This document shows positions 2,112 through 45,878 of a DNA stretch of 64,000 bases, piece by piece (position 1 is the stretch's first letter; each line of letters begins with the position of its first letter). Origin of the DNA: a virus; the IMG/VR virus record IMGVR_UViG_3300043449_000929, positions 1 through 64,000 of that record, one strand, 5' to 3'. The notes below the pieces were generated by a model that worked only from the letters and a program-made list of their open reading frames with translations, did not search any database and was not told the origin of the DNA. A program made the position numbers and the translations under genes.

Positions 2112-3953
2112 TTACACCGTGCTGCTGAAGTTATGGTCTTCACTGTAGCGGTAGTCGTTCTGCGCGCTGTTCTGGACGCTGTAGTGGGTCTGCCAGGAGA
2201 GAGCATTAAGAGCAGAAGCACCAAGCTGTGAGAACACCGCACCGGACGCCTTGCTGATGTCGGCCACGATGCCGCGCGTCTGAATGTAAAGCTCGGCGTT
2301 CATCTTCGCGACAGAGTTTGCGATCTCCGCAGTCCGCTGGGCCTGCTCGAATGTCGCCGCCCACTGCTTGGTGAGGGCGTCATTGTAAGACGCCGTGCCT
2401 TGGACGGTCGCCTTATACATCTCAGCGACAGCAGAATTGGTTGACGCGATACCCTTGATACGCTCGGCCTCGGCCTCGACGGCCACCTTGTAGCCTTCGT
2501 ATTCCTGCATCTTCGCTTCAAGCTTGCCCTTGAACTCAGCGATCTTGGCGTCGATGATCTTGGCCTGCGCGCCGACGCGCGCTGAGTAAGCCTCGACAGA
2601 CGTGGCATAGGCTTGTTGCTTCGTGGCCTCACCCTGAATGGAAGCCTTATAACCTTCAACTTGGGCGGTATAGGCGTTGATTTTTGAACCAAAACTTTTT
2701 ACCTGCTCGCCGTAGATTTCGATCTTCAGCTTCTCGATCTCGGCCTTCGTCTGAACCGCAGCAAGCTGAGCCTTGAACAGCTCTATGGCCGAGAGGGCGG
2801 CGTCGGTCTGGACTTTGTAAGACTGAACAAGTGCCGTATTGATCTCAGCTTTTGCGCGTTCAGCCTCTACCTGCGCTTTATATGCCTCTACCTTGCTCAT
2901 CTCACCTTGGATCTGAGCTTTGTAGATTTCGATCTTCACAGAGTAAGCTTGAACGTAGGCTTTATATGCCTCAACTTTGGCATTATACGTTTCAATGCCA
3001 GCCTGCGTTGCATACTTCACGCCCTCAAGAACGCGCTGCTCGATCTGGTTGTATTGGTCGATCAGCTTGCCTTCCAAGTTCACAGCCAAGTCGAGCGACT
3101 GCTTCAGGTTCTCCTGTTCCAGCTCGGCCTGCTTGATCATCACCTCGCGCGAAAAGCCGTAGCTCTGCGCGGCGTATTCAGTCTGAAGCTTTATGCGCGC
3201 ATCAAGCCACGGGCCGGGGGGCAGCGCGTAACCCAGCGACTCCATGCGGTCTACTTCAGCTAGCCCGTCAGCGAGCGTCTTGGCTTCACGCTCCCTGCCC
3301 CTGTCCCAGATCGCCTTCTCAACTGCTGGCGCGAGGCCGGTGCCGCCGTTAAGGCGGCTGGAGATAAGCGACGTAAGCTGGGTAAGCAGCGCCGAAGTGA
3401 ATCCTGTTCCCGGCGTATAGGAGAACACCTGCGGATCTACGATGGTCAGAACCGGCGTGTTATCCACGATGCTCGGAATATTGACGCCGCCAAAAGTGTA
3501 AGTCGAGATCGACAGAAGATCAGGCGCCTTCGGGAGCGTGACGGTCGGATCTGTCGGGAAGCTCGGATAGGTGATGCCGGGAGCAGTAGGCGCGGCGTCA
3601 GTAAACGCCACCGGTGCAGTGGCGAACTGGAGGACAGGCGGCGCAGTGTCGAACGTCGCCGGTAGATACGGATCGACATTGAGCGTGGCGCTGATCGGGG
3701 TCGGAAGCCCAGGCACGTTCCACGAATAGGTGACGAGCGACGGCTGAGTGGTCGTAGAAATCGCAGGCGCAGTCGGCCCACTGGCGAACGTCGGCGTAAC
3801 GACCGGGGCAACGAGGGAGTTGGCGAGGTTGCTCAGAACATTCGCCTGCGTGATCGCATTCAGCGTCATTACAGACGCTGTCGCCATGTGGTCTACAGGC
3901 GTAGCGGGATAGGGGCTACTAAAAGACCACAGACCAGAAGGAGGCGTTGCCAT
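2112..3953 (-). CDS. Long helical repeat protein, probable virion structural protein
   Basis: 613 aa in two parts. Residues 1-180 are Pro/Thr/Val-rich and extended. From about residue 260 to 520 there is a continuous helix built on repeats of about 11-14 residues with the pattern VEAYKAQVEAE, in which Tyr-Lys-Ala recurs (EAYKAY, EIYKAQ, EAYKAQ, QSYKVQ, EGYKAS). Such a rod could be a stalk or fibre shaft. The C-terminal 60 residues are globular and aromatic. Place in the operon, next to other tail proteins, supports a virion role; exact function unknown. Confidence 0.75.
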   Translation of the reverse strand: MATPPSGLWSFSSPYPATPVDHMATASVMTLNAITQANVLSNLANSLVAPVVTPTFASGPTAPAISTTTQPSLVTYSWNVPGLPTPISATLNVDPYLPATFDTAPPVLQFATAPVAFTDAAPTAPGITYPSFPTDPTVTLPKAPDLLSISTYTFGGVNIPSIVDNTPVLTIVDPQVFSYTPGTGFTSALLTQLTSLISSRLNGGTGLAPAVEKAIWDRGREREAKTLADGLAEVDRMESLGYALPPGPWLDARIKLQTEYAAQSYGFSREVMIKQAELEQENLKQSLDLAVNLEGKLIDQYNQIEQRVLEGVKYATQAGIETYNAKVEAYKAYVQAYSVKIEIYKAQIQGEMSKVEAYKAQVEAERAKAEINTALVQSYKVQTDAALSAIELFKAQLAAVQTKAEIEKLKIEIYGEQVKSFGSKINAYTAQVEGYKASIQGEATKQQAYATSVEAYSARVGAQAKIIDAKIAEFKGKLEAKMQEYEGYKVAVEAEAERIKGIASTNSAVAEMYKATVQGTASYNDALTKQWAATFEQAQRTAEIANSVAKMNAELYIQTRGIVADISKASGAVFSQLGASALNALSWQTHYSVQNSAQNDYRYSEDHNFSSTV

Positions 3954-4009: not shown

Positions 4010-5605
4010 CTACTTCAGCTTGTCGATGTCGGCCTTCTTCACACCCAGAAAGATTGCGTGGACCCAAGCAGTTGTTGCCGCGCCAATTGAACTGAACAGG
4101 GCGGTGGTTATGTCTGTCTTGTCTCGCATGACGATATTCTGATTCACGAAATATAAGTCTGATGGATCAATAACTCTGATAGACGTATTGCCATTTGCCG
4201 CAAAGATATATGTTCCGACCACTGGGAATAGACCGTCGTATGTCTTCGCTGGCGTATAGACGCGAGAGTCAACATAACCAGCGCCATCAGGTATTTGCTG
4301 CCCCCACATAACAGATGTGTTCTTGTCGGTTCCGAACTCATACGAACCGTCGGAATAGATATACTGAGGGCCGATCTCAGTGTAGCTCGTCGTCGTATTC
4401 CTCACGCTATCCAGACCGAAAAACGTAGCGTTCGCCAATTGATACGCTGTCTGGTCAAGCGAAATTGAACCACTTGAAATAGAAAGCGTGACATTGTCCA
4501 CGCTTCCGTTATTTGAATACACCATGACGCGCTGATTGAGCGGGATAGTCTGAGGCGCGATGGTCGGATTTTTTACGTAGAAATCCCCAGACTGATCCGG
4601 CCCAGCAGTGCCGCCATCCCAGCCATTGAGGCCAATATACAAAGCGTCGAGCGCCGCTTGATGAGCATCAGCAAAGAACCTATTCGCGAAACTGATGTTA
4701 TTTATTCTGATACCATTCGCCTGCGTCACGCGCGAAAAGCCCCACAGAACGCCCGTCTTGTCCACCGCAGCGACAGAGTCGGCGCGCGTAATCCACGGCC
4801 TGACGACAGTGCATGTCGGTGTGCTTTGCGAGAAGTCAGCCTTGTTGCCACAGTTGTCATAGAAGACACGGCCAGTGAAATTTATCAGCGGTCGGCTGGT
4901 GTAGACCGCATTCGTTGGCGACGTTACCGCAGGTCCGAGGATGGTGTTATGGACATTGTAGTAATTCAACCGATCCGTATCTGAGACCGTGCCGTCTGCG
5001 GCGATGGAGATATATGTCGCAGCGACATGCAGGTTGCTTGCCGCCTTGAGTTGCGCCGTTCCGTAATACTGCGATGCGCCGCGGCTCCAGCCTATTGTCT
5101 TGGTCGTGTAGACCTTCTTGCCGAGAGTGTCCAAGTCCTTCATCGGTATGCCGGCGACCTTGTTCACGCCGCCAGAATTGAAGATGACCAGCATGTAGCC
5201 GTCGTCTTCTTCGCCAAGAAGCTCCCTGACTGCTTGCGCGGAAACCGTGATAGAAATGGCCTCGTTCCCAAACTGGCTCGCATACTTCATGCCGACGCCA
5301 CTGCCGAGTGGCGTTGTCCGCATGTTGATCTGGTTGTCGCTCAGACCAACTTCCTGCCGGAATGCGTTGAGGTTCTGCTTAACTGCCGAGCCGTATCGCC
5401 GCATGACGGCGGTTTGAATCTCAACCAGCTTGCGGCTGTCATCAGAGAAGGATGTGTATGGTGGCGTCTGCCCAGGCGCAGGCAATTCCTGATATTCACT
5501 CGGCAGCTCGATAATAATTCTAGCGACCGGAGGCATTTCTCCGGCATGGTCAAACAGATCGCGCGTAAGCGAAAGATCTACGATACGAGACGGGAAACTA
5601 GACAC
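4010..5605 (-). CDS. Virion structural protein, unknown
   Basis: 531 aa, rich in Asn, Thr, Ser and aromatic residues with many predicted strands, typical of phage tail proteins. The N-terminal 120 residues are more charged. No catalytic motif is seen. The start overlaps the stop of 5598-6818 by 8 bp. It probably forms part of the tail or a receptor-binding structure. Confidence 0.7.
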   Translation of the reverse strand: MSSFPSRIVDLSLTRDLFDHAGEMPPVARIIIELPSEYQELPAPGQTPPYTSFSDDSRKLVEIQTAVMRRYGSAVKQNLNAFRQEVGLSDNQINMRTTPLGSGVGMKYASQFGNEAISITVSAQAVRELLGEEDDGYMLVIFNSGGVNKVAGIPMKDLDTLGKKVYTTKTIGWSRGASQYYGTAQLKAASNLHVAATYISIAADGTVSDTDRLNYYNVHNTILGPAVTSPTNAVYTSRPLINFTGRVFYDNCGNKADFSQSTPTCTVVRPWITRADSVAAVDKTGVLWGFSRVTQANGIRINNISFANRFFADAHQAALDALYIGLNGWDGGTAGPDQSGDFYVKNPTIAPQTIPLNQRVMVYSNNGSVDNVTLSISSGSISLDQTAYQLANATFFGLDSVRNTTTSYTEIGPQYIYSDGSYEFGTDKNTSVMWGQQIPDGAGYVDSRVYTPAKTYDGLFPVVGTYIFAANGNTSIRVIDPSDLYFVNQNIVMRDKTDITTALFSSIGAATTAWVHAIFLGVKKADIDKLK

Positions 5606-6818
5606 GACGCTGCGCCACGAGCGGGATGAACTCTAAACTATCCAGATCGAAATCTTGGCCCGTCGTGATTAGCTCCCACGCAAAGTATCTTGCGCGCAGT
5701 CCTTTACCTACACGAACCTTCGTCGTCTGACGGTTCTGTAGCACAACCTGATATGTGTATGTCTCGCCAGTGCCAGCATCGAGCTTCAGATAGACGTTAC
5801 CGTCTCCGCGCATACCTAGATACGCCGCCTGAAAAGAGGCGTAACGTGAACCCCCAAACTGCGTGTATCCGCTGCGCAGCGAAGCAACAGTCGGAGTGCC
5901 GTCGTCATCGCTCCCTTCAAGGACATATAAGCCCGTGGAAGACGCACCAAGATAGTGATGACCGCTACTCGCAAAAGAGTTGAAAGCATAGTTGCTATAC
6001 TCCGTCGTCGCGCCAGTGCGAGTATTCACAGCCCAAGTGGTAAATCCGCCGCCTGGATCAATGATGCCAATGTCGAACGACAACACTTCCGCGATTGTCG
6101 GCTTAAAGACCATCTGCAAAGTTTGCGCATCAGTGAAGGCAAACGTCTGCGGCACTGTGACAACGGCGATCAGCTTCGGCGTCATCGTCTGCGCAAGGTT
6201 CATCGACTCAGATACGGTAGGCTTGTAAGCGCCAATCGCATTGTATGTCGGAGCGACGTTCAGGTTATCCATAAGAACGCCAGCGAGGAACTTCTTGAGT
6301 AGGTCGTTAAAGGCCAGAACCTCAAGCAGTGTCTGCTTGTAGGTCATGTTGGCGGCATTCGTGCTGACAAGCCCCAACCTGTCAGCGATCAATGCACCAA
6401 GGACAGTTGTAATGGCCGGGGCGACATTCATCGCCTGCGCTATCGTAATCGGGCGACCGACAGTGAAGAGATCAGTCAGGCCGAATTGCTGGGCGAGGAT
6501 CTGCTTCAGAACCTGATTAACGCCAAGCGAGCCAGAGACGCCGCACGCCTCAGAGATAGCCGCGCCAGCAACCCACGTTCTAGACAGAGTAGAAGTGAAA
6601 TTGAAGCTGCCGCCCCCGCCGCTGACCGTGAGGCCGAGGGCGGGAGCAAGCGCGTTGAATGCCCACGGTAACGACATGGTCTCAGAGAGACTGCCTGGGA
6701 AAGACTTGTTGACTGTAACGGCGCGCGTTGCCGAGATAGACAAGATCTTGCCCGCAGACTTCAACCTAGTGGTTGTCGTCGTGCAGTTCGCAGAGACTGT
6801 GACGTTAAAAACCGTCAT
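5598..6818 (-). CDS. Virion protein with two copies of the 18-19 residue Thr/Ser repeat
   Basis: 406 aa. Residues 1-40 contain two units (ANCTTTTTRLKSAGK and SATRAVTVNKS) that match the repeat filling the 693-aa protein at 10571-12652, so the two proteins share a building block. The middle has loosely repeated motifs (LSFDIG, MNLAQTM, FAFTDA). The last 140 residues look like a beta-rich binding domain. Probably a tail protein; function not known. Confidence 0.7.
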   Translation of the reverse strand: MTVFNVTVSANCTTTTTRLKSAGKILSISATRAVTVNKSFPGSLSETMSLPWAFNALAPALGLTVSGGGGSFNFTSTLSRTWVAGAAISEACGVSGSLGVNQVLKQILAQQFGLTDLFTVGRPITIAQAMNVAPAITTVLGALIADRLGLVSTNAANMTYKQTLLEVLAFNDLLKKFLAGVLMDNLNVAPTYNAIGAYKPTVSESMNLAQTMTPKLIAVVTVPQTFAFTDAQTLQMVFKPTIAEVLSFDIGIIDPGGGFTTWAVNTRTGATTEYSNYAFNSFASSGHHYLGASSTGLYVLEGSDDDGTPTVASLRSGYTQFGGSRYASFQAAYLGMRGDGNVYLKLDAGTGETYTYQVVLQNRQTTKVRVGKGLRARYFAWELITTGQDFDLDSLEFIPLVAQRRV

Positions 6819-9337: not shown

Positions 9338-10285
9338 CTAGATCCTCTGGTTCATGCCGTCGCGAGCATTCTGGACACGCTCGTTCTCGATCTTCTGCAC
9401 GGATCTCCACGCGAAGTAGCAGGCGACGAGGAAGACAGTGATCAGTAATGCGCCGAGGACAAAGCCCCAGTTCTCGGATAGCCAGCCCCACGTATCCTGC
9501 GCCTGCTGCGCTGTTTGCACGGCCTGAGATACCGGCTCGACGATCTGCTGCGCCGTGTCGAGAATCGCACCGGCTGCTGGGGCGGTGACAGCCGCTGTGG
9601 CGATAGCCTTCTTAGCGGTGTCGGCGTTCGTAACGATCTTGCTGCCAGCGTCTTTCAGATCTTTCGCCGTCAGTTCAGAACGCGGCTTCGATACGATGCG
9701 AGACCATTTTACGTATTCACGCTGAAGCCAGCCAGCGTATTTATCGACCTGCCCGCTACCGTTGTAGCCCCTGGCAAACGAATGCCAGTTGTGTTCGCGA
9801 AGAAACTTCGACAGTCCACGGTTCTCAATGAAGCGAAGCATCTGGCGAAGCTGCTTGGCTTCGCTCTCCTTTGCCTCTTCAAACATCTCTTTTGCCGACG
9901 AGCAGCCAGCGGCTCTGTAGTTCTCCCCGAGAACCTGCCCCATACCCATCGAGATCGACCGATACGCGGCCTCTTCGTTGATCCTGATCGCCTGCGCTAG
10001 GCGCAGATACTGCGCGTCCGAGCCGGGGGGATACTTCATCTGTCCCCACGACCGATACGCCAGACCGGCGCGAACCGCTTTATCTCGCTGCGCGCCGCTC
10101 AGGTTTCGATAGAAGACGTGCGGCTCAAACAGGATGAGCGGTCGGCGGCGACCGTCGTAGCCAGAGTTGCGAGATTCGACGGCCATGACGGCGCGGACCT
10201 CCGCGAGTCCGAGCTTCGCCACATTAGCAGCGTGCGCAATCTCGTTAGCCGTAATCGGCTTGGCGGCTCCTGCAAAATCCGTCAC
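9338..10285 (-). CDS. Endolysin: N-acetylmuramidase with C-terminal membrane segment
   Basis: 315 aa. Residues 15-190 match the N-acetylmuramidase family (GH108/DUF3380 type): AVMAVESRNSGY with likely catalytic Glu37, FEPHVFYR, ISMGMGQVLGENY and ARGYNGSGQ. The enzyme would cleave the glycan strand of peptidoglycan. Unusually there is a linker (residues 200-270) and then one strong membrane helix (about 275-294) followed by a charged tail, and no N-terminal signal. The start overlaps the upstream stop (ATGA). Confidence 0.85.
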   Translation of the reverse strand: MTDFAGAAKPITANEIAHAANVAKLGLAEVRAVMAVESRNSGYDGRRRPLILFEPHVFYRNLSGAQRDKAVRAGLAYRSWGQMKYPPGSDAQYLRLAQAIRINEEAAYRSISMGMGQVLGENYRAAGCSSAKEMFEEAKESEAKQLRQMLRFIENRGLSKFLREHNWHSFARGYNGSGQVDKYAGWLQREYVKWSRIVSKPRSELTAKDLKDAGSKIVTNADTAKKAIATAAVTAPAAGAILDTAQQIVEPVSQAVQTAQQAQDTWGWLSENWGFVLGALLITVFLVACYFAWRSVQKIENERVQNARDGMNQRI

Positions 10286-25081: not shown

Positions 25082-25855
25082 CTAATAAGCGTCCCTAACC
25101 CAAGAGAAGCCGTTCTTGCCGAAACCCCACGGCGACGGGGCAAACATCTTGCGCATGGCGTTGTCGCGCGCGAGCTTCACGTTCTCCTCGAACGACGCCT
25201 TGAACCGCTCCGCAAGCGCTGGCATTCCGCCATCCACATCCACGATACGCAGCGCGAGGTAAGCGGCCCAGTCTAGCATCTCAAGATGGTGATCGACTGG
25301 GATCTCTGGCACAGCCGCCATATTCGCCGTTGTCAAATCATCGACCGGCATACGGATAACGCGGAGATTAATAAGCTTGGTGTTGTAGTCGGAGCTAGGC
25401 GTCGGATAGACGCGGAGCGTCACGGCAGACACGGAGTCATAGTCGTCCGTGCTGAGATATTCGTCTGTCGCAAACGCCAGCGGCTTGCCATCCGGCATCG
25501 TCGATAGCTGAGACGGGTCGAAGAAATATGTGTCAGGAACACGATACGTATCCAACGCCGCGTGACCGCCTCGCGCCAGATCGGCTTTGTCGTCCTGGTA
25601 GCGGGCCGACATGACAGCCAGAATGCTCGGATCGAGGGCGTATTCGTTGACGCCCGTCTGAAGCGTCACCTTCGTAACGTCAGAAGTTCCATCTCGGATA
25701 ATCAGCCCACGGCGCGCGAAACGCCGCTGGGCTTCGTTGATCATTGTCACAAGCGTTTCCGTAGACCACAAATAGTCTGGTGTCCCGGCAACCCTATCAG
25801 ACCTGTCGTAAAGAATGTTATTTTTCAAATAATCGACAAGCTGTTGCAGAGTCAT
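25082..25855 (-). CDS. Head-tail connector / adaptor protein
   Basis: 257 aa. The opening MTLQQLVDYLKN, then YLWSTETLVTMINEAQRRFARRG and the closing block DWAAYLALRIVDVD...ERFKASFEENV (key residues given) match phage adaptor proteins that sit under the portal. Length is typical. It lies between the GIY-YIG gene (4-bp overlap) and the internal virion protein. Confidence 0.75.
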   Translation of the reverse strand: MTLQQLVDYLKNNILYDRSDRVAGTPDYLWSTETLVTMINEAQRRFARRGLIIRDGTSDVTKVTLQTGVNEYALDPSILAVMSARYQDDKADLARGGHAALDTYRVPDTYFFDPSQLSTMPDGKPLAFATDEYLSTDDYDSVSAVTLRVYPTPSSDYNTKLINLRVIRMPVDDLTTANMAAVPEIPVDHHLEMLDWAAYLALRIVDVDGGMPALAERFKASFEENVKLARDNAMRKMFAPSPWGFGKNGFSWVRDAY

Positions 25856-26682
25856 TTCAGCACCCGTTTCGGACGTACCAGCGCATCACCACATACGCCT
25901 CGCTTGGTTCTGTCAAATATCAATGCCTTCCCAATTCCATATTTTTCTGACAGTTCGCTCACCGTCAAAAGCTCACCATTAACAAGGTAGCGTTTAACAC
26001 TTAAAAGCCTCTTGTTGTCTTTTGACCACGGCTTGCGTTCTTGCCTAAGCTTGGCGTGCAACGGCGCTATTAGTTCTTCACCAATTAATCCGCGTTCTAT
26101 GCGTCTATTTATCGTCCACTGCTTGAAACCATATTTCTCGGCAACTTGATGGCGAGTGAGCATTTCACCACGAACTTCATAAAGCTTGCGAGTTGCCTCG
26201 TTCATGCGTTCAATATTCGCCAAGACAGCTTCAGGATTATTCCTGTAGTATTTTTGCTTTCCTTCGCGAAGACTACGCTTATATTCTGGCGTGTGCCTTA
26301 TAGACGAAAAAACGTCCCGTCTGCGGCCTAAAGCATATTCCTGCTTCAATCTCTCCGAATGACGCTTCCCAACGTCTGGAGAATGCCTACAGCCAAGGCA
26401 AGATCCAGCAGTCGGGCTTGTATTAAATTCCGGCCTGTAAAGATCAATTACAGACTGCTCGTACATTACGCAATCTTCTGGACGGCAAACGATTACAATT
26501 TCAAATCTGAAAGCATCTTCACCATATTTATTCCATGCTCGCTGCATGTACTTTGAATGGTGCTTGCTGTTGCGAAGCTGTGATAGATGCGTCCTGAACC
26601 TATGTTTCAGCGACTTAGCAGAACTGCCAACATAACGCTTGCCCGTAGGTAAGCAGGTGATCACATAAACGCCAGCATTCAT
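25852..26682 (-). CDS. GIY-YIG homing endonuclease, free-standing
   Basis: 276 aa from ATG 26682. GVYVITCLPTGKRYVGSS (residues 4-21) is the GIY-YIG core; further conserved positions include Arg near residue 30 and Glu near residue 75. The C-terminal half has several small DNA-binding repeats of the NUMOD kind; TRHQVAEKYGF and the later VSELSEKYGIGKALI are two copies of a helix-turn-helix-like motif. The same motif ends the second GIY-YIG gene at 29493-30347, so the two are related. It is inserted between capsid-side genes and the connector and overlaps the connector start by 4 bp. A TATTTGACA promoter-like sequence lies inside its last codons (25911-25920). Confidence 0.85.
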   Translation of the reverse strand: MNAGVYVITCLPTGKRYVGSSAKSLKHRFRTHLSQLRNSKHHSKYMQRAWNKYGEDAFRFEIVIVCRPEDCVMYEQSVIDLYRPEFNTSPTAGSCLGCRHSPDVGKRHSERLKQEYALGRRRDVFSSIRHTPEYKRSLREGKQKYYRNNPEAVLANIERMNEATRKLYEVRGEMLTRHQVAEKYGFKQWTINRRIERGLIGEELIAPLHAKLRQERKPWSKDNKRLLSVKRYLVNGELLTVSELSEKYGIGKALIFDRTKRGVCGDALVRPKRVLK

Positions 26683-26702
26683 GTGACCACCATAGCACAA
26701 TC

Positions 26703-28059: not shown

Positions 28060-29387
28060 TTAAGCGGTGGCGAGAACTTCCAAACGAGCCATCCAGGCAT
28101 CGTTCAGAATGACGGTCGTGGTGTAGAGCTTCCAACCAACGGTGCCGCGCTGAGCCAGCGGATCGCCAGCAGCAGGCTTCGGATTCACAACCATCGGCGT
28201 CATGCTCGACTTGCCCTTCAGCGGGACAATGCCAAAGGCATCGCGACCGAAGACAAGGATCGGGTAAACGTCTGGATAGCTGGAAGCCGTCGAACGGTAG
28301 GTCGTGGTAGACGCGCCACCCGAAGTCGCCGCGTCCGTAAACGGAGCGATGATCGTCGAAGTGAGGAAGCGGATCTGTTCGACCGAACCGATCTCACCGG
28401 GAAGCGGCGATGTATGCGGGCCGTAATCCGCAACCGCCTTGAAGCCCGCGAGCGAACGAATGTCCGTTTCGAGGTCAGGGTGGCAAACCGCAAAGTAAGC
28501 ACGCTCGACAGACTTCGTGTTGTAGTCAGCGGAAGAACCGATGACCTGCGAAATCTTCTGCGCGTTCTGACGGTTCAGGCCAGTCGCAACACGGCGAAGG
28601 TCAGCAAGCGACAGAGCAGAAGCAAGCAACTGACGGTTTGCAACCTTGTTCGCGTAGAAGACGTTGGTACCCGCCTTCAGCACATTATATCTGAGCGTCT
28701 CTACTGTAGACGCAGCGGATTCACCGAGAACATCAGTGGCCTGCTCAAGCACCGAGTCGGTGTGAGTGTCCATGATGACATCAGTGATGGTGATGTAGTC
28801 ACCATACTGAGCGACAGTCGCCGTGTAGTCCTGATTGGCGAGCTTGTTGCCAACAGGGGTCACGCCTTCAACCAGCGGGGTCGTCGCCAGCGGGATGAAG
28901 AACGGGTTAGACGCCGAGCCGGAACCAGCAGAGCCGGTCGCGCCGCTAAGGAAATAGCGACGGAACTTGGCAGTCTGAGTGCTGTTGGTCGGGAGCGGAT
29001 ACGCCTGACCGAATTGCTCAAGCTGAAGGAGGGGCAAACCGCGCTTCAGCATTTTCACAACGGACCCTTACATCTTCACCATTGGTCGCTAATCAATGAT
29101 CGCTTCTGTTATGAAGCTGCTGCGTGTTTCCACGCAGAAGAGACTATATCTTCACCCTCTTTCGAGGGGCTGGGAGCTTCGGACCGCTTGGCCCTACGAG
29201 TCGCTACACTCTAGTCGTTACACCTTACTGCATACGCAGTCTTGGCTCGGTATTGCCCTCGTCATTACACGTTAGGGTGTTCACCGACTTCACCCAGTCA
29301 CACTACGCGATTGCTCGCGCACGGCCCCAGTCAGATTAAGGCAGCAACCGCAGGCGAAATATCGCCGTAAGCGGTAATCTGAGCCAT
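28060..29387 (-). CDS. Major capsid protein, N4-gp56 type, split by a group I intron
   Basis: Spliced protein of 351 aa: exon 1 is 29387-29338 (MAQITAYGDISPAVAA plus two bases) and exon 2 is 29065-28060. Exon 2 alone would begin in the middle of the conserved block, at GTG 29058 (MKMLKRGLPLLQLEQFGQ), and lacks the usual N-terminus; exon 1 supplies it, giving ..ISPAVAALSVVKMLKRG. The family shows the pattern TYGDISP..LLKRG..Y..LEKFGQ..PLP. Exon 1 has a GGAGAT ribosome-binding site 7 nt before ATG. The protein builds the capsid shell with the scaffold (33547-34458). Confidence 0.85.
29066..29337 (-). ncRNA. Group I intron in the major capsid gene
   Basis: About 272 nt, no internal gene. Conserved core: P-like AATACCGAGCCAAGAC (29253-29238), R-like GTGTAACGACTAGAG (ending 29208) and S-like AAGATATAGTC (29152-29142); GACTA (29216-29212) pairs with TAGTC (29146-29142) as P7. 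Clear hairpins: P2-like CGCGA/GCAA/TCGCG (29319-29306), CTGC/GTAT/GCAG (29239-29228), P8-like CCCTC/GAAA/GAGGG (29168-29155), P9-like CTGCGTG/GAAA/CACGCAG (29137-29120). P1: exon GCCTT (29342-29338) with GGGGC (29328-29324), putting a U.G pair at the 5' splice site. P10: exon-2 GTC with GAC (29332-29330). The last intron base is G. A splice after ..ATCT is an alternative that also keeps the frame. Confidence 0.9.
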
Positions 29388-29468: not shown

Positions 29469-29496
29469 TCTATATACCACAACAATTAGCTGTCAA
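29469..29496 (-). promoter_or_regulatory. Sigma70-type promoter for the major capsid gene
   Basis: TTGACA (29496-29491), 16-nt spacer, TATAGA (29474-29469). The -35 lies in TATTTGAC, shared with other late promoters, and overlaps the TGA stop of the upstream GIY-YIG gene. Predicted start is about 75 nt before the capsid ATG. Confidence 0.75.
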
Positions 29497-30347
29497 ATAG
29501 GCTTGTGCGAGAACCTAATATCTACAGGCGCGATGAGATCTTCGCCGCGCTTGCCCGCGCGATAGCGGTTTTTAACTAGGTGATAAGATAGGCCGTATTT
29601 ATCTGCGATTTGGTGGCGATTAATAAACTCGCCTCTGATCTCAATCCTCTCGGCGTGCTGCTCGAAATAAGCCTTCTTACCCCGGCTAATCCCGACTGAC
29701 CGCTTAGCCATAACGTCTGGCCGCTTAGCCAACTCTGCGCTAATGATCCGGCGCTTCTCCCTGAGAGCGGGGTCGCGCATGGCCCGCGCGTGGTTATTCC
29801 TGCGCCGTGCTTCAATCTCCTTGTCGGCGCGCATTGCGTCTAATTGCTCAATGCGCTTTGCATAGACTTCAGGCTCACTTAGCTTCGCCTTCAACGCCTC
29901 ACTGTGGCGACGCTTTGAAGCACCAACTAACGGCGCGACGCAGTAACCGCCAAGATTAAGATTCGCAAGAGTGCCACCCTCATCAGTTATTCCGTAATGC
30001 TCAATCAGATGCTTCTCTAACGACAGGGCCTCGTCATTAGTCAGGCTCTCAATGATCTTGAATATCGGAAGATTGCCGTGCTTTTCGTAATCGGCGGCAA
30101 GAATGAAATTGGTATGTTTTCCGCCAGCAGCAGAATGCTTTCGAATACGTCTCCCGCTTCCCTTCCCTACGTATCTGGGTGTGCCGTCAGGCAATAGGAT
30201 TAGGTAGACGTAGCATCTACGCTCGGACTCAGTGCTTAATGAAACACAACGCAAAAACCGCTCGGCCTCGAACTTAGCAGTTCGCAGCGTTTCAGCGATC
30301 TTGTCTTCGGGGGATTGTGAGTCTAAGTAGTCTTCAGCCATCTTCAT
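29493..30347 (-). CDS. GIY-YIG homing endonuclease upstream of the intron-bearing capsid gene
   Basis: 284 aa (ATG 30341 is an alternative start better placed relative to GTAGGAG). The nuclease core is a variant: YVYLILLPDGTPRYVGKG at residues 46-63. A charged helical middle follows, then the C-terminal motif NRHQIADKYGLSYHLVKNRY..GEDLIAP (key residues), closely similar to the end of the other GIY-YIG protein. It ends 106 bp upstream of capsid exon 1. It may cut intron-less capsid genes and so spread the adjacent intron, but that is inferred from location. Confidence 0.8.
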   Translation of the reverse strand: MKMAEDYLDSQSPEDKIAETLRTAKFEAERFLRCVSLSTESERRCYVYLILLPDGTPRYVGKGSGRRIRKHSAAGGKHTNFILAADYEKHGNLPIFKIIESLTNDEALSLEKHLIEHYGITDEGGTLANLNLGGYCVAPLVGASKRRHSEALKAKLSEPEVYAKRIEQLDAMRADKEIEARRRNNHARAMRDPALREKRRIISAELAKRPDVMAKRSVGISRGKKAYFEQHAERIEIRGEFINRHQIADKYGLSYHLVKNRYRAGKRGEDLIAPVDIRFSHKPI

Positions 30348-41684: not shown

Positions 41685-41699
41685 GCGACACTTTGTCGC
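41685..41699. promoter_or_regulatory. Perfect dyad upstream of the ArdC operon promoter
   Basis: GCGACA-CTT-TGTCGC, a 6-bp perfect inverted repeat 21 bp before the -35 box. A likely protein-binding site. Confidence 0.45.
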
Positions 41700-41720
41700 A
41701 CATAAATCTAACTAGCTATA

Positions 41721-41749
41721 TTGACTAGTGAGAAAGGCGGGACTATAAC
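41721..41749 (+). promoter_or_regulatory. Promoter of the ArdC operon with ACTAG direct repeats
   Basis: TTGACT (41721-41726), exact 17-nt spacer, TATAAC (41744-41749); predicted start about 41756, four bases before the first UUACAG hairpin. ACTAG occurs three times, at 41711, 41724 and 41748, the last two overlapping -35 and -10, so a repressor site is likely. Confidence 0.75.
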
Positions 41750-41759
41750 TAGTTTTGTT

Positions 41760-41775
41760 GGACGTTACAGCGTCC
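41760..41775 (+). promoter_or_regulatory. UUACAG hairpin 1
   Basis: Stem GGACG/CGTCC around loop TTACAG, 27 nt before the ATG of 41797. First of eight gene-start hairpins with the same loop and differing stems; each is followed by a GGAG-type ribosome-binding site. The compensating stem changes argue for selection on RNA structure plus loop sequence, as expected for a protein- or RNA-binding element. Confidence 0.8.
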
Positions 41776-41796
41776 CGCACAAAGGAGAGAGAGACA

Positions 41797-42075
41797 ATGC
41801 GTGACGCTTTCCACTTTTACGCTGATCCCGGCCATGGCTGGCTTCGCGTGACTGAAGACGACCTGGCAGACGTTGGCCTGACCGCCGACAGCTTCAGCCG
41901 TTACAGCTACGTGAACGGCCCGCGCTTCTACCTTGAAGAAGACTGCGACGCCGGTGTGTTCCTCGACGCTTACACCGCCAAGCGTGGCGCGGCCCCCGTC
42001 ATTTTTGAACACCACTCAAATGGCGACAGCCTGATCCCCACCTATACGCGCCTTCCTGGCGCAAACCGCACCTAA
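41797..42075 (+). CDS. Small conserved phage/plasmid-type protein
   Basis: 92 aa from ATG 41797 with AAAGGAGAGAGAG upstream. FHFYADPGHGWLRVTEDDL, YSYVNGPRFYLEEDCDAGVF (key residues GHGWL, YLEEDCD) form a compact family seen on phages and plasmids next to anti-restriction genes. Function unknown. It is the first gene after the operon promoter. Confidence 0.7.
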   Translation: MRDAFHFYADPGHGWLRVTEDDLADVGLTADSFSRYSYVNGPRFYLEEDCDAGVFLDAYTAKRGAAPVIFEHHSNGDSLIPTYTRLPGANRT

Positions 42076-42083
42076 AGGCCGAA

Positions 42084-42101
42084 ACGGGGGTCCGCCCCCG
42101 T
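42084..42101 (+). promoter_or_regulatory. Post-stop GC hairpin a
   Basis: ACGGGGG-TCCG-CCCCCGT, a perfect 7-bp stem 9 nt after the stop of 41797-42075. Terminator-like stem but without a U-run. Confidence 0.6.
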
Positions 42102-42131
42102 CTTCCCGTGACGCGGGAACTGACGAGGCCA

Positions 42132-42145
42132 GCCGTTACAGCGGC
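42132..42145 (+). promoter_or_regulatory. UUACAG hairpin 2
   Basis: Stem GCCG/CGGC, loop TTACAG, 35 nt before the ArdC-like start. Confidence 0.75.
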
Positions 42146-42175
42146 GCACCGAGCAGAAAACAGGAGAGAGAGACC

Positions 42176-43069
42176 ATGGCAAAGAGAGACCTACACGCCG
42201 AAATCACCGCCCGTATTGTGGCGTTGCTCGACGCTGGCACGATCCCGTGGCGCAAGCCCTGGAGCGAGACCAACACCGGCTTTGGCGCCATGCCGCGCAA
42301 CGCCGTGACGCGCCGCGCCTACTCCGGCGCGAATGTCGTTCTGTTGTGGGCTACGGCCCAGGAACGCGGCTATGAACAGCCCCGGTGGGCGACGTTCAAG
42401 CAGATCGCAGAAGCGGGCGGCAACGTCCGCAAGGGCGAGAAGTCAACGCCGGTTATCTATACGAGCAGCATCGAGAAGACCGACGAGGAGACCGGCAAGC
42501 TTCGCCGCATCGCCTTTCTCAAATCCTTCAACGTCTTCAACATCGCGCAGTGTGACAACGTGGACGCTCTACAGGAAGAACGCGCGCCGCGCATTATCAA
42601 CCCCGGCCAGCGCGACGAGATCGCGGAAGGCTTCATCGCCTCGACCGGCGCGGAAGTCAGGCACGGCGAGGCGCGCGCCTACTACACGACAGCGGGAGAC
42701 TATATCAACCTCCCGATGTTCGAGAGCTTCACCAGCGCGCCGGAATACTACAGCACCGCCTTTCACGAGCTGACCCACTGGACCGGCGCATCGCACCGGC
42801 TCAACCGGGAATTTGGCAAGCGCTTTGGCGATCATTCCTACGCCGCCGAGGAACTTGTCGCGGAACTTGGCTCAGCGTTCGTTTGCGCCGAGTTCGGTCT
42901 GGACAACCACACCTTGGACAATTCCGCAGCCTACATTGCGTCATGGAAAAAGCGCCTCACGGAGAACGATAAGTTGTTTGTCGCCGCCGCCTCCCACGCA
43001 TCCAAGGCCGTTGACTTCATGCGCGGCCTCGCTCTTGAGGCCGACACAGAGGAGCCAATCGCAGCATGA
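42176..43069 (+). CDS. ArdC-like anti-restriction protein
   Basis: 297 aa. N-terminal ssDNA-binding ArdC domain (IPWRKPWSE at 23-31, RRAYSGANVVLLW at 46-58, YEQPRWATFKQ at 66-76, GEKSTPVIY). C-terminal zincin-like metalloprotease domain with HELTH (197-201) and a downstream acidic helix EELVAELG (225-232). ArdC proteins protect incoming DNA against host restriction. Start has CAGGAGAGAGAGACC. It would act on first entry or at induction. Confidence 0.85.
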   Translation: MAKRDLHAEITARIVALLDAGTIPWRKPWSETNTGFGAMPRNAVTRRAYSGANVVLLWATAQERGYEQPRWATFKQIAEAGGNVRKGEKSTPVIYTSSIEKTDEETGKLRRIAFLKSFNVFNIAQCDNVDALQEERAPRIINPGQRDEIAEGFIASTGAEVRHGEARAYYTTAGDYINLPMFESFTSAPEYYSTAFHELTHWTGASHRLNREFGKRFGDHSYAAEELVAELGSAFVCAEFGLDNHTLDNSAAYIASWKKRLTENDKLFVAAASHASKAVDFMRGLALEADTEEPIAA

Positions 43070-43084
43070 CGTTTGCCTTTTGGG

Positions 43085-43105
43085 GGCGGGACCGAACATC
43101 CCGCC
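43085..43105 (+). promoter_or_regulatory. Post-stop GC hairpin b
   Basis: GGCGGGA/TCCCGCC, 7-bp perfect stem 16 nt after the ArdC stop. Confidence 0.6.
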
Positions 43106-43118
43106 GCCCAATGGGGAA

Positions 43119-43130
43119 CCGTTACAGCGG
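43119..43130 (+). promoter_or_regulatory. UUACAG hairpin 3
   Basis: Short stem CCG/CGG, loop TTACAG, 27 nt before ATG 43154. The weakest stem of the set. Confidence 0.65.
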
Positions 43131-43153
43131 GACCACAGAAGGAGAGAGAGACC

Positions 43154-43576
43154 ATGGGACTCGATATGTATCTAAACGGAAGGCTTTCTATCATTCCGAA
43201 ACGGGACGACAGCGAGCAAAAAATCGACGGGAAGCGAGTCAAGGAAATAACCGTTGAGTTAGGATACTGGCACAAACATCCCGATTTGCATGGATATATC
43301 GTCAACACTTTCGCGGGCGGGGATGACAATTGCCAAGCAATCCGCCTCGACCGGGAAGACGTTGAAAAGATCATATCCGCCATCGAGAACGACGACTTAG
43401 CCCACGGGACGGAAGGATTTTTTTTCGGGAAATCCTACCAACCCGGCGAAACAAACGAATACGGATCATACGAAGATCAGAAAAAGGACGATCTAGAAAT
43501 CTTCAAATCAGCCATCGAATGGTTGAAAAATGAAGACGATAAAAACTGGCGCGATATTGAATACGAAGCCAGTTAG
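43154..43576 (+). CDS. MGLDMYL-family phage protein
   Basis: 140 aa from ATG 43154 (AAGGAGAGAGAG upstream). MGLDMYLNGR at the start, ELGYWHKHPDLHGYIV in the middle, then DNCQAIRLDREDVEKI and EGFFFG are the ordered motifs of a widespread small family on phages and plasmids. Its biochemical role is not established. Codon use is somewhat more AT-rich than its neighbours. Confidence 0.7.
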   Translation: MGLDMYLNGRLSIIPKRDDSEQKIDGKRVKEITVELGYWHKHPDLHGYIVNTFAGGDDNCQAIRLDREDVEKIISAIENDDLAHGTEGFFFGKSYQPGETNEYGSYEDQKKDDLEIFKSAIEWLKNEDDKNWRDIEYEAS

Positions 43577-43589
43577 TGAGCCTCACACC

Positions 43590-43613
43590 CTGCCCATCAG
43601 CAACGGTGGGCAG
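43590..43613 (+). promoter_or_regulatory. Post-stop GC hairpin c
   Basis: CTGCCCA/TGGGCAG, 7-bp perfect stem 13 nt after the stop of 43154-43576. Confidence 0.6.
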
Positions 43614-43636
43614 ACTGGGAAGCTTACAGGCAACCC

Positions 43637-43652
43637 CCGCTTTACAGAGCGG
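43637..43652 (+). promoter_or_regulatory. UUACAG hairpin 4
   Basis: Stem CCGCT/AGCGG closed by a U-A pair, loop TTACAG, 22 nt before ATG 43669. Confidence 0.8.
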
Positions 43653-43668
43653 AGACAGGAGAGAGAAC

Positions 43669-43764
43669 ATGCAATCGACCTTGCTTATCATGGAAGCGAC
43701 CGCCGCCGCCATCCTGACGACCGTTTACGCGCAGCCGGTGGTTGCGTGGCTTATCGCGAAGTAA
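43669..43764 (+). CDS. 31-residue single-helix membrane peptide
   Basis: ATG 43669 with CAGGAGAGAGAAC upstream and a UUACAG hairpin before it. The product is one hydrophobic helix (LIMEATAAAILTTVYAQPVV) ending AWLIAK. The conserved upstream element argues that the peptide is made although it is very short. Confidence 0.65.
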   Translation: MQSTLLIMEATAAAILTTVYAQPVVAWLIAK

Positions 43765-43774
43765 GGGGCCGACG

Positions 43775-43957
43775 ATGTATTACACCTACAGCAGGCACCG
43801 CAGCAGGGACGCCGCCGAGTCCGCACTGGAGGAGTATTTCGCGACCGGAGAAGTCAGCGACGGAGAATGGCCGCGCATTAAATATGAGCGAAGCCGTGGT
43901 TGGTTAGTCCAGTTCTACGACTGGACATATCCGACCTTTGAAGCGCCGACACGCTGA
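43775..43957 (+). CDS. Small protein, unknown
   Basis: 60 aa from ATG 43775 (AAGGGG upstream). The only gene in this operon part, apart from 45366-45581, without its own UUACAG hairpin; it follows the membrane peptide by 10 bp and is probably translated from the same unit. It ends in an aromatic segment (GWLVQFYDWTYP). Function unknown. Confidence 0.6.
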   Translation: MYYTYSRHRSRDAAESALEEYFATGEVSDGEWPRIKYERSRGWLVQFYDWTYPTFEAPTR

Positions 43958-43967
43958 GCCTCACGCC

Positions 43968-43989
43968 GGGGGCGGGTGACGCCGCCCCC
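43968..43989 (+). promoter_or_regulatory. Post-stop GC hairpin d
   Basis: GGGGGCGG-GTGACG-CCGCCCCC, 8-bp perfect stem 10 nt after the stop of 43775-43957. Confidence 0.6.
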
Positions 43990-44011
43990 CACGGGAAGCT
44001 TAGGCGACCTG

Positions 44012-44027
44012 CCGTCTTACAGGACGG
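44012..44027 (+). promoter_or_regulatory. UUACAG hairpin 5
   Basis: Stem CCGTC/GACGG closed by C-G, loop TTACAG, 24 nt before ATG 44046; a further G.U pair extends it. Confidence 0.8.
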
Positions 44028-44045
44028 TCACACAGGAGAGAGAAC

Positions 44046-44228
44046 ATGCGCAAACAGAAGAACACGACCCGCAAGGCCAAGAACGCCGCCAATATGGAAT
44101 CGACCCATTGGGACTTTTTCCTATACAGCGGCGAATGGTTTGCCCGCCTTTCATTCCCCGACGCTAAGACAGTCCGCAAGCTGTTTCCTGGCGCCAAGGT
44201 GGAAGGGCAAAGTGTTTATTTAGCCTGA
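44046..44228 (+). CDS. Small basic protein, unknown
   Basis: 60 aa. A basic lead (MRKQKNTTRKAKNAANM) followed by an aromatic strand pair (WDFFLYSGEWFARLSF) and FPGAKVEGQSVYLA. CAGGAGAGAGAAC precedes the start. A nucleic-acid-binding role is possible from charge; nothing more can be said. Confidence 0.6.
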   Translation: MRKQKNTTRKAKNAANMESTHWDFFLYSGEWFARLSFPDAKTVRKLFPGAKVEGQSVYLA

Positions 44229-44238
44229 CCCTTTCGGC

Positions 44239-44262
44239 ATAGGGACGGACGCCCGCCCCTAT
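44239..44262 (+). promoter_or_regulatory. Post-stop GC hairpin e
   Basis: ATAGGG-a-CGG/CCG-c-CCCTAT: two stacked stems separated by an A/C mismatch, 11 nt after the stop of 44046-44228. Confidence 0.55.
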
Positions 44263-44280
44263 CGCGAAGCGGTCAGCTTC

Positions 44281-44296
44281 CCGCGTTACAGCGCGG
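44281..44296 (+). promoter_or_regulatory. UUACAG hairpin 6
   Basis: Stem CCGCG/CGCGG, loop TTACAG, 22 nt before ATG 44313. Nearly identical to hairpin 7 together with its flank, so one is a recent copy of the other. Confidence 0.8.
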
Positions 44297-44312
44297 AATA
44301 TAGGAGAGAGAG

Positions 44313-44657
44313 ATGATAAACTGCAAGGTTCAAGCAAACGGCGATTTGCTAGTCACAGCCGACAACGAGGCGCGCAACTATATCCGCGAGCATATCGAAC
44401 GCGGCTATTGGACGACGTTTTATGAATTGTTCGAGCCATTCTTTACGAATGGTTCCTATGAGCCGTTCGACGCCGGGAACGCTGATCCTTTTGTCGGGCT
44501 TACAAGCGCACCGTGCATCGCTGAGGCTATCTGTCATCCAGACGAAGGCCCCCGCAAAGTGGATGGCCGTCTATGGTGGTTTCCGAACTACATGGTTTGC
44601 GACCCGCTGGACGAGCTAAAGAATAAGGGCCGCACCGTCTTTGCGCTTGCGGAATAA
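44313..44657 (+). CDS. Small phage protein, unknown
   Basis: 114 aa. MINCKVQANGDLLVTADNEARNYI gives a strand then a helix; WTTFYELFEPFFTNG and a Trp-rich end (RLWWFPNYMVCDPLDEL) follow. This arrangement resembles small early proteins carried by phages and plasmids but no function is established. TAGGAGAGAGAG precedes ATG. Confidence 0.65.
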   Translation: MINCKVQANGDLLVTADNEARNYIREHIERGYWTTFYELFEPFFTNGSYEPFDAGNADPFVGLTSAPCIAEAICHPDEGPRKVDGRLWWFPNYMVCDPLDELKNKGRTVFALAE

Positions 44658-44670
44658 CCCCAGCCTATTC

Positions 44671-44686
44671 CCGCGTTACAGCGCGG
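44671..44686 (+). promoter_or_regulatory. UUACAG hairpin 7
   Basis: Stem CCGCG/CGCGG, loop TTACAG, 25 nt before ATG 44706. The preceding ACCCCAGCCTAT (44657-44668) recurs at 44987-44998. Confidence 0.8.
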
Positions 44687-44705
44687 AATAAAGGAGAGAG
44701 AAGCC

Positions 44706-44987
44706 ATGAGCGAGCAAATAAACTTTAAGCGCTTCCACAATTTCGAGGCGCGCTACCATCGCAACGGCATTTGCGGCGTTGGGTTCTACGCTTGCAAATT
44801 CCTGTATGTTGACGAGCGAGGACGCGCCATCGACGAAATCATAGCCGCCTACTTTCCCAAAGATGGAGAGACAGCAGAATATTATGCGGTAATGTCCGAT
44901 GATATTGGATGCAGATGGCGCGGCGATCATTTCGTTGACGACCTACGCGACGCAATAGAAACCTACGGCGCTTTGGCCCACGCCTGA
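44706..44987 (+). CDS. Small protein, unknown
   Basis: 93 aa. A basic-aromatic start (FKRFHNFEARYHRNG), a Cys in GFYACKFLY, and an acidic end. AAGGAGAGAGAAGCC precedes ATG. No family recognised. Confidence 0.6.
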   Translation: MSEQINFKRFHNFEARYHRNGICGVGFYACKFLYVDERGRAIDEIIAAYFPKDGETAEYYAVMSDDIGCRWRGDHFVDDLRDAIETYGALAHA

Positions 44988-45000
44988 CCCCAGCCTATAG

Positions 45001-45022
45001 AGCGTCAGTCCCGGCTGGCGCT
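45001..45022 (+). promoter_or_regulatory. Post-stop GC hairpin f
   Basis: AGCGTCAG/CTGGCGCT, 8-bp stem with one G.U, 14 nt after the stop of 44706-44987. Confidence 0.55.
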
Positions 45023-45029
45023 TTATGGG

Positions 45030-45047
45030 AAGCGGTTACAGCCGTTT
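45030..45047 (+). promoter_or_regulatory. UUACAG hairpin 8
   Basis: Stem AAGCGG/CCGTTT (one G.U), loop TTACAG, 28 nt before ATG 45069. Confidence 0.75.
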
Positions 45048-45068
45048 CGTTAGAAGGAGTAGAGAGCA

Positions 45069-45353
45069 ATGAGAAAGATCAGAATAACGGCCAAGTTCGA
45101 GAACAGCCCGCAAACGCTTGGATGGATTGCATGGGTTACGGGGGATGAATACGGGCCGCACTATCTAGGCAACACGCACACTTCTTTTTGTGAAGCTATA
45201 GAAACAGCGGCACGAGTCATTATGTCGCAGAACCCAATGGCACGAATTTCGAGCTATGATCCAACGCCCGCGCAAATGAAAAAAGCAGCGCGCGCCGTCG
45301 CATGGCAAAACGATCAATCGTTTTTTACCCATGACTGGGTGAAAATTCAGTAA
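45069..45353 (+). CDS. Small protein, unknown
   Basis: 94 aa. MRKIRITAKFENSPQTLGWI forms strands; ETAARVIMSQNP is a helix; the end is aromatic and basic. GAAGGAGTAGAGAG precedes ATG. No family recognised; expression is linked to the hairpin operon. Confidence 0.6.
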   Translation: MRKIRITAKFENSPQTLGWIAWVTGDEYGPHYLGNTHTSFCEAIETAARVIMSQNPMARISSYDPTPAQMKKAARAVAWQNDQSFFTHDWVKIQ

Positions 45354-45365
45354 GGAGCCACGCCA

Positions 45366-45581
45366 ATGCGTAAACTTATAACCGCCGCCGCCTTCCTGGC
45401 CGCGACCGCTGCTAACGCCGGTTACTTATATGAGCCGCCGCAGATCAGCCCATACGAGCGGAACCAGCGCCAAATGCAGCAACAGCTCGACGACATACAA
45501 AGGATGCAGCAGCTCCAAATCATGCGGCAGCAGGAACAGCTAGAGCAGCAGCGCCGGGATATGATGCTTTTTGGACGCTAA
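45366..45581 (+). CDS. Secreted Gln-rich coiled-coil protein
   Basis: 71 aa. Signal peptide MRKLITAAAFLAATAANA with a likely cut after ANA, then YLYEPPQISPYE and a Gln/Arg-rich helix (about residues 35-68). Likely a periplasmic protein. It follows its neighbour by 12 bp with AAGGAG and has no hairpin of its own. An envelope-modifying or exclusion role is possible but not shown. Confidence 0.65.
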   Translation: MRKLITAAAFLAATAANAGYLYEPPQISPYERNQRQMQQQLDDIQRMQQLQIMRQQEQLEQQRRDMMLFGR

Positions 45582-45588
45582 ACAAACC

Positions 45589-45621
45589 GCCCCCGGCAGT
45601 TACAGCTACCGGGGGCTTTTT
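45589..45621 (+). terminator. Rho-independent terminator with UUACAG loop
   Basis: GCCCCCGG-CAG / CTA-CCGGGGGC stem (one C/A mismatch), loop TTACAG (45600-45605), then five T. It ends the hairpin operon and has the same loop as the gene-start hairpins. Confidence 0.85.
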
Positions 45622-45677: not shown

Positions 45678-45878
45678 ATGACAATGAGCCTAGAAGCCAA
45701 GGAATATATGCGGCGCAGCCGGGACAAACGCCAAGCCCAAGGCGGGAAGCAAGTCGCCGTTATGCTTACACCGGAAGAAAACGCCGCCCTTGAAAAACTC
45801 AAGTCAAAGCTAGGGTTAAACGCCCGCGACTCTATCGGCAAGGCGCTACTGGACGCCGCCCGTCGCGTTAAAATCTGA
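45678..45878 (+). CDS. Small ribbon-helix-helix-like protein
   Basis: 66 aa (ATG 45684 is an alternative). A basic start then QVAVMLTPEENAALEKLKSKLGLNARDSIGKAL, a strand-helix-helix pattern like small plasmid-type repressors. It lies after the operon terminator, so it depends on read-through or its own start; GGAGAGAGAGAC occurs about 35 nt upstream. A candidate regulator of the ArdC operon. Confidence 0.6.
   Translation: MTMSLEAKEYMRRSRDKRQAQGGKQVAVMLTPEENAALEKLKSKLGLNARDSIGKALLDAARRVKI

Follow-up and report, generated by a model that had tools for sequence, protein, structure and literature searches.

Several described elements are repeated along phage genomes or are read as hairpins in front of phage genes. 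Mycobacteriophage repressors of the L5 type act at stoperators, many dispersed copies of one phage-specific site, and in T4 intercistronic C(UUCG)G hairpins with a conserved loop and varied stems lie between phage genes. In cluster K mycobacteriophages, start-associated sequences (SAS) and extended start-associated sequences (ESAS) are repeated just upstream of many non-structural genes, by the ribosome site; the ESAS consensus varies between subclusters and the ESAS arms are its conserved part (PMC3203893). Stoperators are mentioned in the same work (PMC3203893). The RNA operator of the DNA polymerase (gp43) of T4, RB69 and RB49 is a hairpin approximately 40 nucleotides (nt) upstream of the start codon, whose loop is read by the phage protein and varies between phages (UAAC, UAAA) (PMC3014915). 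Prophage hammerhead ribozymes, finally, are clustered around single genes, including ardA in Agrobacterium; they cleave in vitro and in E. coli, and processing into single-gene mRNAs has been suggested (PMC3088659). Here we describe a family of hairpins with one shared loop that precede the genes of a small-gene operon in a stretch of 64,000 nt (the window) from the 64,094-base IMG/VR virus record IMGVR_UViG_3300043449_000929, and their counterparts in related viral contigs, where each lineage has a loop of its own.

The long genes of the window are mostly on the minus strand. The small genes considered here form a plus-strand operon (41797-45581) with ten gene starts, an ArdC-like gene among them. 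Upstream of eight of the ten starts lies a hairpin that has the loop UUACAG and 3 or more stem pairs. Seven different stems carry this loop, which shows no substitution across the eight hairpins and recurs in the terminator hairpin at the end of the operon:

41760-41775, plus strand: signature hairpin 1, GGACG-UUACAG-CGUCC, precedes gene 41797-42075
42132-42145, plus strand: signature hairpin 2, GCCG-UUACAG-CGGC, precedes the ArdC gene
43119-43130, plus strand: signature hairpin 3, CCG-UUACAG-CGG
43637-43652, plus strand: signature hairpin 4, CCGCU-UUACAG-AGCGG
44011-44028, plus strand: signature hairpin 5, (G)CCGUC-UUACAG-GACGG(U)
44281-44296, plus strand: signature hairpin 6, CCGCG-UUACAG-CGCGG
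44671-44686, plus strand: signature hairpin 7, CCGCG-UUACAG-CGCGG
45029-45048, plus strand: signature hairpin 8, GAAGCGG-UUACAG-CCGUUUC, with one G-U pair
45589-45616, to 45621 with the T run, plus strand: operon-end terminator hairpin, loop UUACAG, fold z -4.3

A preliminary description, made from the window sequence, had claimed that eight start-proximal hairpins and the terminator share the loop TTACAG, and all nine were found in the sequence. Seven of the start-proximal hairpins have stems of at least 4 pairs and six of at least 5, and in 1000 dinucleotide shuffles of the same 75-nt start regions a maximum of three regions shared any loop of 5-7 nt. The stems covary: 91.4% of stem cells are paired compared with 49.3% in column shuffles, compensating changes on both sides occur at all five pairs, and the covariation score of 1.03 (0.23 in shuffles) was reached by none of 500 column shuffles. 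TTACAG occurs 26 times in the window (15.8 expected); nine copies lie in start-proximal or terminator hairpins, all within the operon, and none of the copies elsewhere in the window has a stem of at least 3 pairs. One extra GC-TTACAG-GC with a 2-base-pair stem (43622-43631) is absent from the preliminary description. A chance origin of the shared-loop hairpins in the window is excluded, and since the loops stay constant while the stems drift, the loop is the selected part.

Placement is equally regular. All eight gaps of 48-100 nt in the operon contain a signature hairpin, and the two hairpin-less genes (43775 and 45366), which the preliminary description does not mention, start 10 and 12 nt after the preceding stop. 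A GGAG site follows each hairpin, as had been stated, at a hairpin-to-Shine-Dalgarno (SD) distance of 5-17 nt and with no fixed start motif in the window leaders; the stated distance of 22-35 nt to the start codon holds from the loop, the distance from the 3' end of the stem being 16-30 nt. The operon-end hairpin at 45589-45621 has the GC-rich stem and subsequent T run of an intrinsic terminator; an automated terminator scan reports this inverted repeat for the minus strand alone, and the plus-strand T run was read from the sequence.

In related viral contigs the layout is like that of the window and the loop differs, being invariant or nearly so inside each contig. In the nearest relative found, L090 (terminase 83% identical), eight hairpins, each with a different stem, carry GUCCAG as their loop without a single substitution; all stem cells (100%) are paired and six of six pairs are altered on both sides. 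Its hairpins lie on the sense strand of each of two divergent operons, and its plus-strand operon has the same division between long gaps with and short gaps without hairpins. The other relatives carry CCGCCA closed by an invariant C-G pair or else CTTGCGCCAGCAAG, either form containing CGCCAG (L011-L017), CGACAA (L019/L020), UUCGCAG at five start-proximal sites with five stems plus a 10-base-pair copy at 9479 (L250), WUGGC(G) at seven sites ahead of GAGGA (L253) and CAGCAA at four sites (L364). All hairpin carriers are metagenomic contigs. In the window, L014 and L017, the lineage's own loop is found again in hairpins at operon ends. When 25 hexaloop hairpins were pooled, 96.8% of cells were paired compared with 42.7% after shuffling. 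Start-region shuffles covered the window, L184, L250, L204, L019 and L253 (L364 was left out); for stems of at least 5 pairs, the shuffles were exceeded in L184, the L090 contig (5 versus 2), L250 (5 versus 2), L204, the L014 contig (3 versus 2), and L019 (4 versus 3).

The conserved feature is the architecture, the loop being lineage-specific, and UUACAG as a universal family signature is rejected. A search in other phages, as had been proposed, finds the hairpin architecture kept in homologous operons and UUACAG replaced by other loops. A gene kept with its hairpin absent, named beforehand as a sign against the element, was seen once, for the homologue of gene 44046-44228 at L090:3147; it starts 12 nt after the preceding stop, a gap of the kind that lacks hairpins in the window too. 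Searching all viral contigs for CGTTACAGCG plus GGAGAGAGA gave a single match, in a coding region, which was judged to be chance. A common loop pattern NNNCAR in six of seven lineages is suggestive only, as 3.7% of random sets match it with free register.

Compared with the described systems, SAS/ESAS come closest in placement and likewise have a consensus that varies by phage group, but in ESAS the arms are conserved, whereas here the arms differ between sites and covary and the loop is conserved; the conserved 13-base-pair GGGATAGGAGCCC of SAS was found beside the start in no window leader. The gp43 operators are closest in loop reading and in their phage-dependent loops, binding being presumed in our case; they serve a single autoregulated gene, whereas here the element is repeated per gene across an operon. 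Stoperators are DNA sites with a conserved sequence, unlike a stem-loop in which only the loop is conserved. The T4 C(UUCG)G hairpins are accounted for by an extra-stable tetraloop, whereas the hexa- and heptaloops found here vary by lineage. Rfam has no family for the signature hairpins at the gathering cut-off, and the only match at this level in the window is a group I intron away from the operon. The earlier statement that no such element is described agrees with this and with a literature search, thin on subscription journals, in which no describing paper was found. The hairpins would thus be RNA elements of a class not described before, repeated and covarying, with lineage-specific loops, and spread over a group of temperate phages.

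Most intergenic regions of the operon are predicted to fold as two adjacent hairpins, a GC-rich one at the 3' end of the upstream gene and then the signature hairpin, downstream of which a spacer with GGAG stays open and leaves the SD unpaired. One example is:

43082-43109, plus strand: GC-rich hairpin closing the 3' end of the upstream gene, just 5' of the signature hairpin (predicted fold)

The same layout is predicted at 43577-43673, 43958-44048, 44229-44315 and 44988-45071. The regions 43577-43631 and 43958-44002 have GAGCCTCAC...GGGAAGCTTA(CA)GGC in common, and a possible outer stem GCCT/AGGC encloses the GC-rich hairpin in both.

Upstream of the ArdC gene, a ribozyme core absent from the preliminary description overlaps the start of hairpin 2:

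42077-42138, plus strand: core of a hammerhead ribozyme of type II (RF02276 of Rfam; score 36.1 bits, curated cut-off 37; E 3.7e-6 on 201 bases)

The core CGAAAC...GUC...CUGACGA is intact, with the CUGANGA, GAAA and NUH elements of type II and three stems, and the predicted cut falls between 42102 and 42103. The order of hammerhead core, signature hairpin and SD recurs in L019 (core 29.7 bits) and in L253 (core at 5576-5636, 31.0 bits), where two further cores were recognized from their pattern and paired stems, again with hairpins a short way downstream. As in the prophage clusters, a type II core stands between phage genes that include an anti-restriction gene; the difference is that the signature hairpin stands apart as an element of its own and occurs at many junctions that have no ribozyme. 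A pseudoknot of hammerhead loop I (UGACG) with CGUUA of hairpin 2 is possible in the window and has no obvious counterpart in L019 or L253, and it was not used. In another viral contig (L045, 4229-6279), four hammerhead matches, three of type II and one of type III below the cut-off, surround an ArdC-like gene within approximately 2 kb, without signature hairpins.

The hairpins probably act as RNA, because they keep the sense-strand orientation even in divergent operons and a copy stands in the terminator. To our judgement from the sequences, the chances are slightly better than even that they are 5' untranslated modules of mRNAs processed into single-gene units, and that a trans factor specific to the phage reads their loop. 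One promoter would transcribe the whole small-gene operon, and successive genes would be joined by a GC-rich 3' hairpin (sometimes a hammerhead), the signature hairpin and, after a spacer rich in A and C and free of structure, the SD. The hammerhead could cut the RNA at some junctions; cleavage between the paired hairpins would yield single-gene mRNAs with a hairpin at both ends and an open ribosome site. The phage would most likely encode a trans-acting factor that co-evolves with the loop and probably binds it, and that so might control translation or stability of all units jointly. What we infer is that the RNA is cut between the hairpins, that a trans factor exists, and the direction in which it acts, be it activation, repression or stabilisation. 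A universal host enzyme is an improbable reader, since the loops differ from relative to relative. The preliminary description had taken the hairpins for a dedicated RNA-binding or processing element; gene-by-gene repetition, compensatory stems and a constrained loop bear out a dedicated element, for which RNA binding or processing is a putative role. UUACAG itself as the family mark does not stand.

Several points weigh against these processed, loop-read modules. The three hammerhead scores (36.1, 31.0 and 29.7) are all below the RF02276 cut-off of 37, and most intergenic regions have no ribozyme, so that cutting there is assumed. Some carriers have only 3-5 hairpin sites, and in L253 the count for 6-nt loops only equals the shuffle maximum (3 versus 3, stem of at least 5 pairs). 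Among the open reading frames of eight contig sets, several of whose contigs are incomplete, no candidate trans factor was found, only ArdC, terminase and portal being widely shared as genuine genes; given this incompleteness, the failure to find a shared reader is weak evidence. The two readers proposed beforehand gained no support: the product of 45678-45878 weakly resembles an Arc-like (ribbon-helix-helix) DNA-binding repressor and occurs in one relative only, and that of 46162-46332 matches no Pfam family. Pairing of the loop with a small RNA or another loop was rejected, as the exact complement CTGTAA occurs nowhere in the window operon and, within the operon, loop complements are not carried by separate hairpins.

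If the loop were not read at all, the hairpins might simply shield the 5' ends of mRNAs or keep the ribosome site insulated. Stem-loops at the 5' end are known to stabilise bacterial mRNA, sequences that look by eye like promoters lie just upstream of the first hairpin in each of the window, L014 and L364, and the SD stays open beside the hairpins in the predicted folds. Such a stabiliser needs no identical loop, however, and in the window and L090 the loops are unchanged while the stems changed on both sides; nor are these loops known extra-stable tetraloops. We regard plain stabilisation as unlikely.

A further reading is that of RNA-level operators, in which one RNA-binding protein per lineage reads its own loop at every unit and silences or activates the small genes together. 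This arrangement, to which we give a rather low probability, would parallel at the RNA level the dispersed stoperators of DNA, with immunity groups defined by the loop.

Processive antitermination sites, nut- or put-like hairpins that modify RNA polymerase during transcription, would fit the nearness to promoter-like sequences and the occurrence in both divergent L090 operons on the sense strand only; lambdoid boxB loops likewise vary between phages. Yet a single site per transcript would be enough for this, whereas there is one hairpin per gene; the loop also occurs in operon-end hairpins, the intergenic hairpins mostly lack T runs and leave little to antiterminate, and no boxA-like element was noticed, although no systematic search was made. 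Antitermination therefore appears improbable. Equally doubtful are mere processing sites, cut at or near the hairpin by a phage or host RNase, as by RNase III in the T7 early region: the hairpins do lie between genes beside a second hairpin, and at some junctions hammerheads may take on this task, but no cut is needed at hairpin 1, which lies ahead of the first gene and close to a promoter-like sequence, and a host RNase leaves the different loops of related phages unexplained. Single-stranded DNA hairpin promoters, as for the virion RNA polymerase of phage N4, would agree with hairpins upstream of genes in the orientation of the gene and are scarcely credible, as the window showed no virion RNA polymerase (its largest protein, of 2058 amino acids, has no Pfam match), the spacing to the SD ranges over 5-17 nt without a fixed start motif, and the terminator has the same loop.

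Returning to processed single-gene modules with a phage-specific reader, the lineage loop code implies such a specific reader and offers a natural set of RNA-loop/partner pairs. The hairpins would further offer a route to co-regulated phage genes and link ribozyme processing with coordinated expression of small accessory genes.

The range of the element does not follow ArdC. At the threshold used, no comparable pattern was found at 80 ArdC loci of alphaproteobacterial and other bacterial genomes, and the signature-hairpin pattern was missing from the four cultured ArdC phages examined, Caulobacter and Brevundimonas phages. The signature loop was not found in Rollin or Rhizobium phage RHph_TM3_14A, cultured phages with related terminases. 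The L090 hairpins stand in two divergent operons whose small genes are unrelated, and no ArdC turned up in this contig, which is incomplete. ArdC as a marker of the hairpin system is ruled out by the 80 bacterial loci and the cultured ArdC phages; the window operon does carry ArdC, as the preliminary description emphasized, and the link is not essential. The absences from ArdC loci, ArdC phages and related-terminase phages show that neither ArdC nor terminase per se is the shared factor.

In Brevundimonas phage Kikimora (L352, 1544-10049), many genes follow intergenic regions of approximately 150 nt in which a GTTAACCTTAAC-like motif recurs together with a promoter-like TTGACA sequence, so that promoter/operator repeats placed gene by gene are found instead of hairpins. 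The repeated TTGACAATAAATGGAATTCCAATTACAATACTTG before several genes of L225 (3750-4510) is probably a repeated promoter and was rejected as a hairpin case.

The start of the window operon comprises the following features:

41721-41749, plus strand: possible sigma-70 promoter TTGACT-17-TATAAC (10 of 12 positions, by eye)
41797-42075, plus strand: small gene of 92 amino acids without a family match
42176-43069, plus strand: ArdC-like anti-restriction protein (ArdcN and MPTase-PolyVal; PF08401 5.7e-40, PF18818 1.7e-44)

With this putative promoter, the expected +1 would fall about at the start of hairpin 1. An automated promoter scan gives TTGTCG-18-TATATT at 41693-41722, approximately 30 nt upstream; the scan demands T at the last position, and TTGACT-17-TATAAC is therefore not in its output.

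Elsewhere in the window, the group I intron (29120-29348, minus strand, 62.1 bits, cut-off 50) adjoins gene 28060-29058, capsid-like by position, and GIY-YIG-like open reading frames were recognized by eye at 29493-30347 and 25852-26700. A SAM-I/IV riboswitch match in L090 (9802-9898, minus strand, corresponding to L184 7019-7115; 46.6 bits, cut-off 41.1) is located a short way upstream of the gene for terminase, on the other strand. The viral contig L017 has a DUF3800-IX RNA match at 3438-3507 on the minus strand (61.3 bits, cut-off 36.8).

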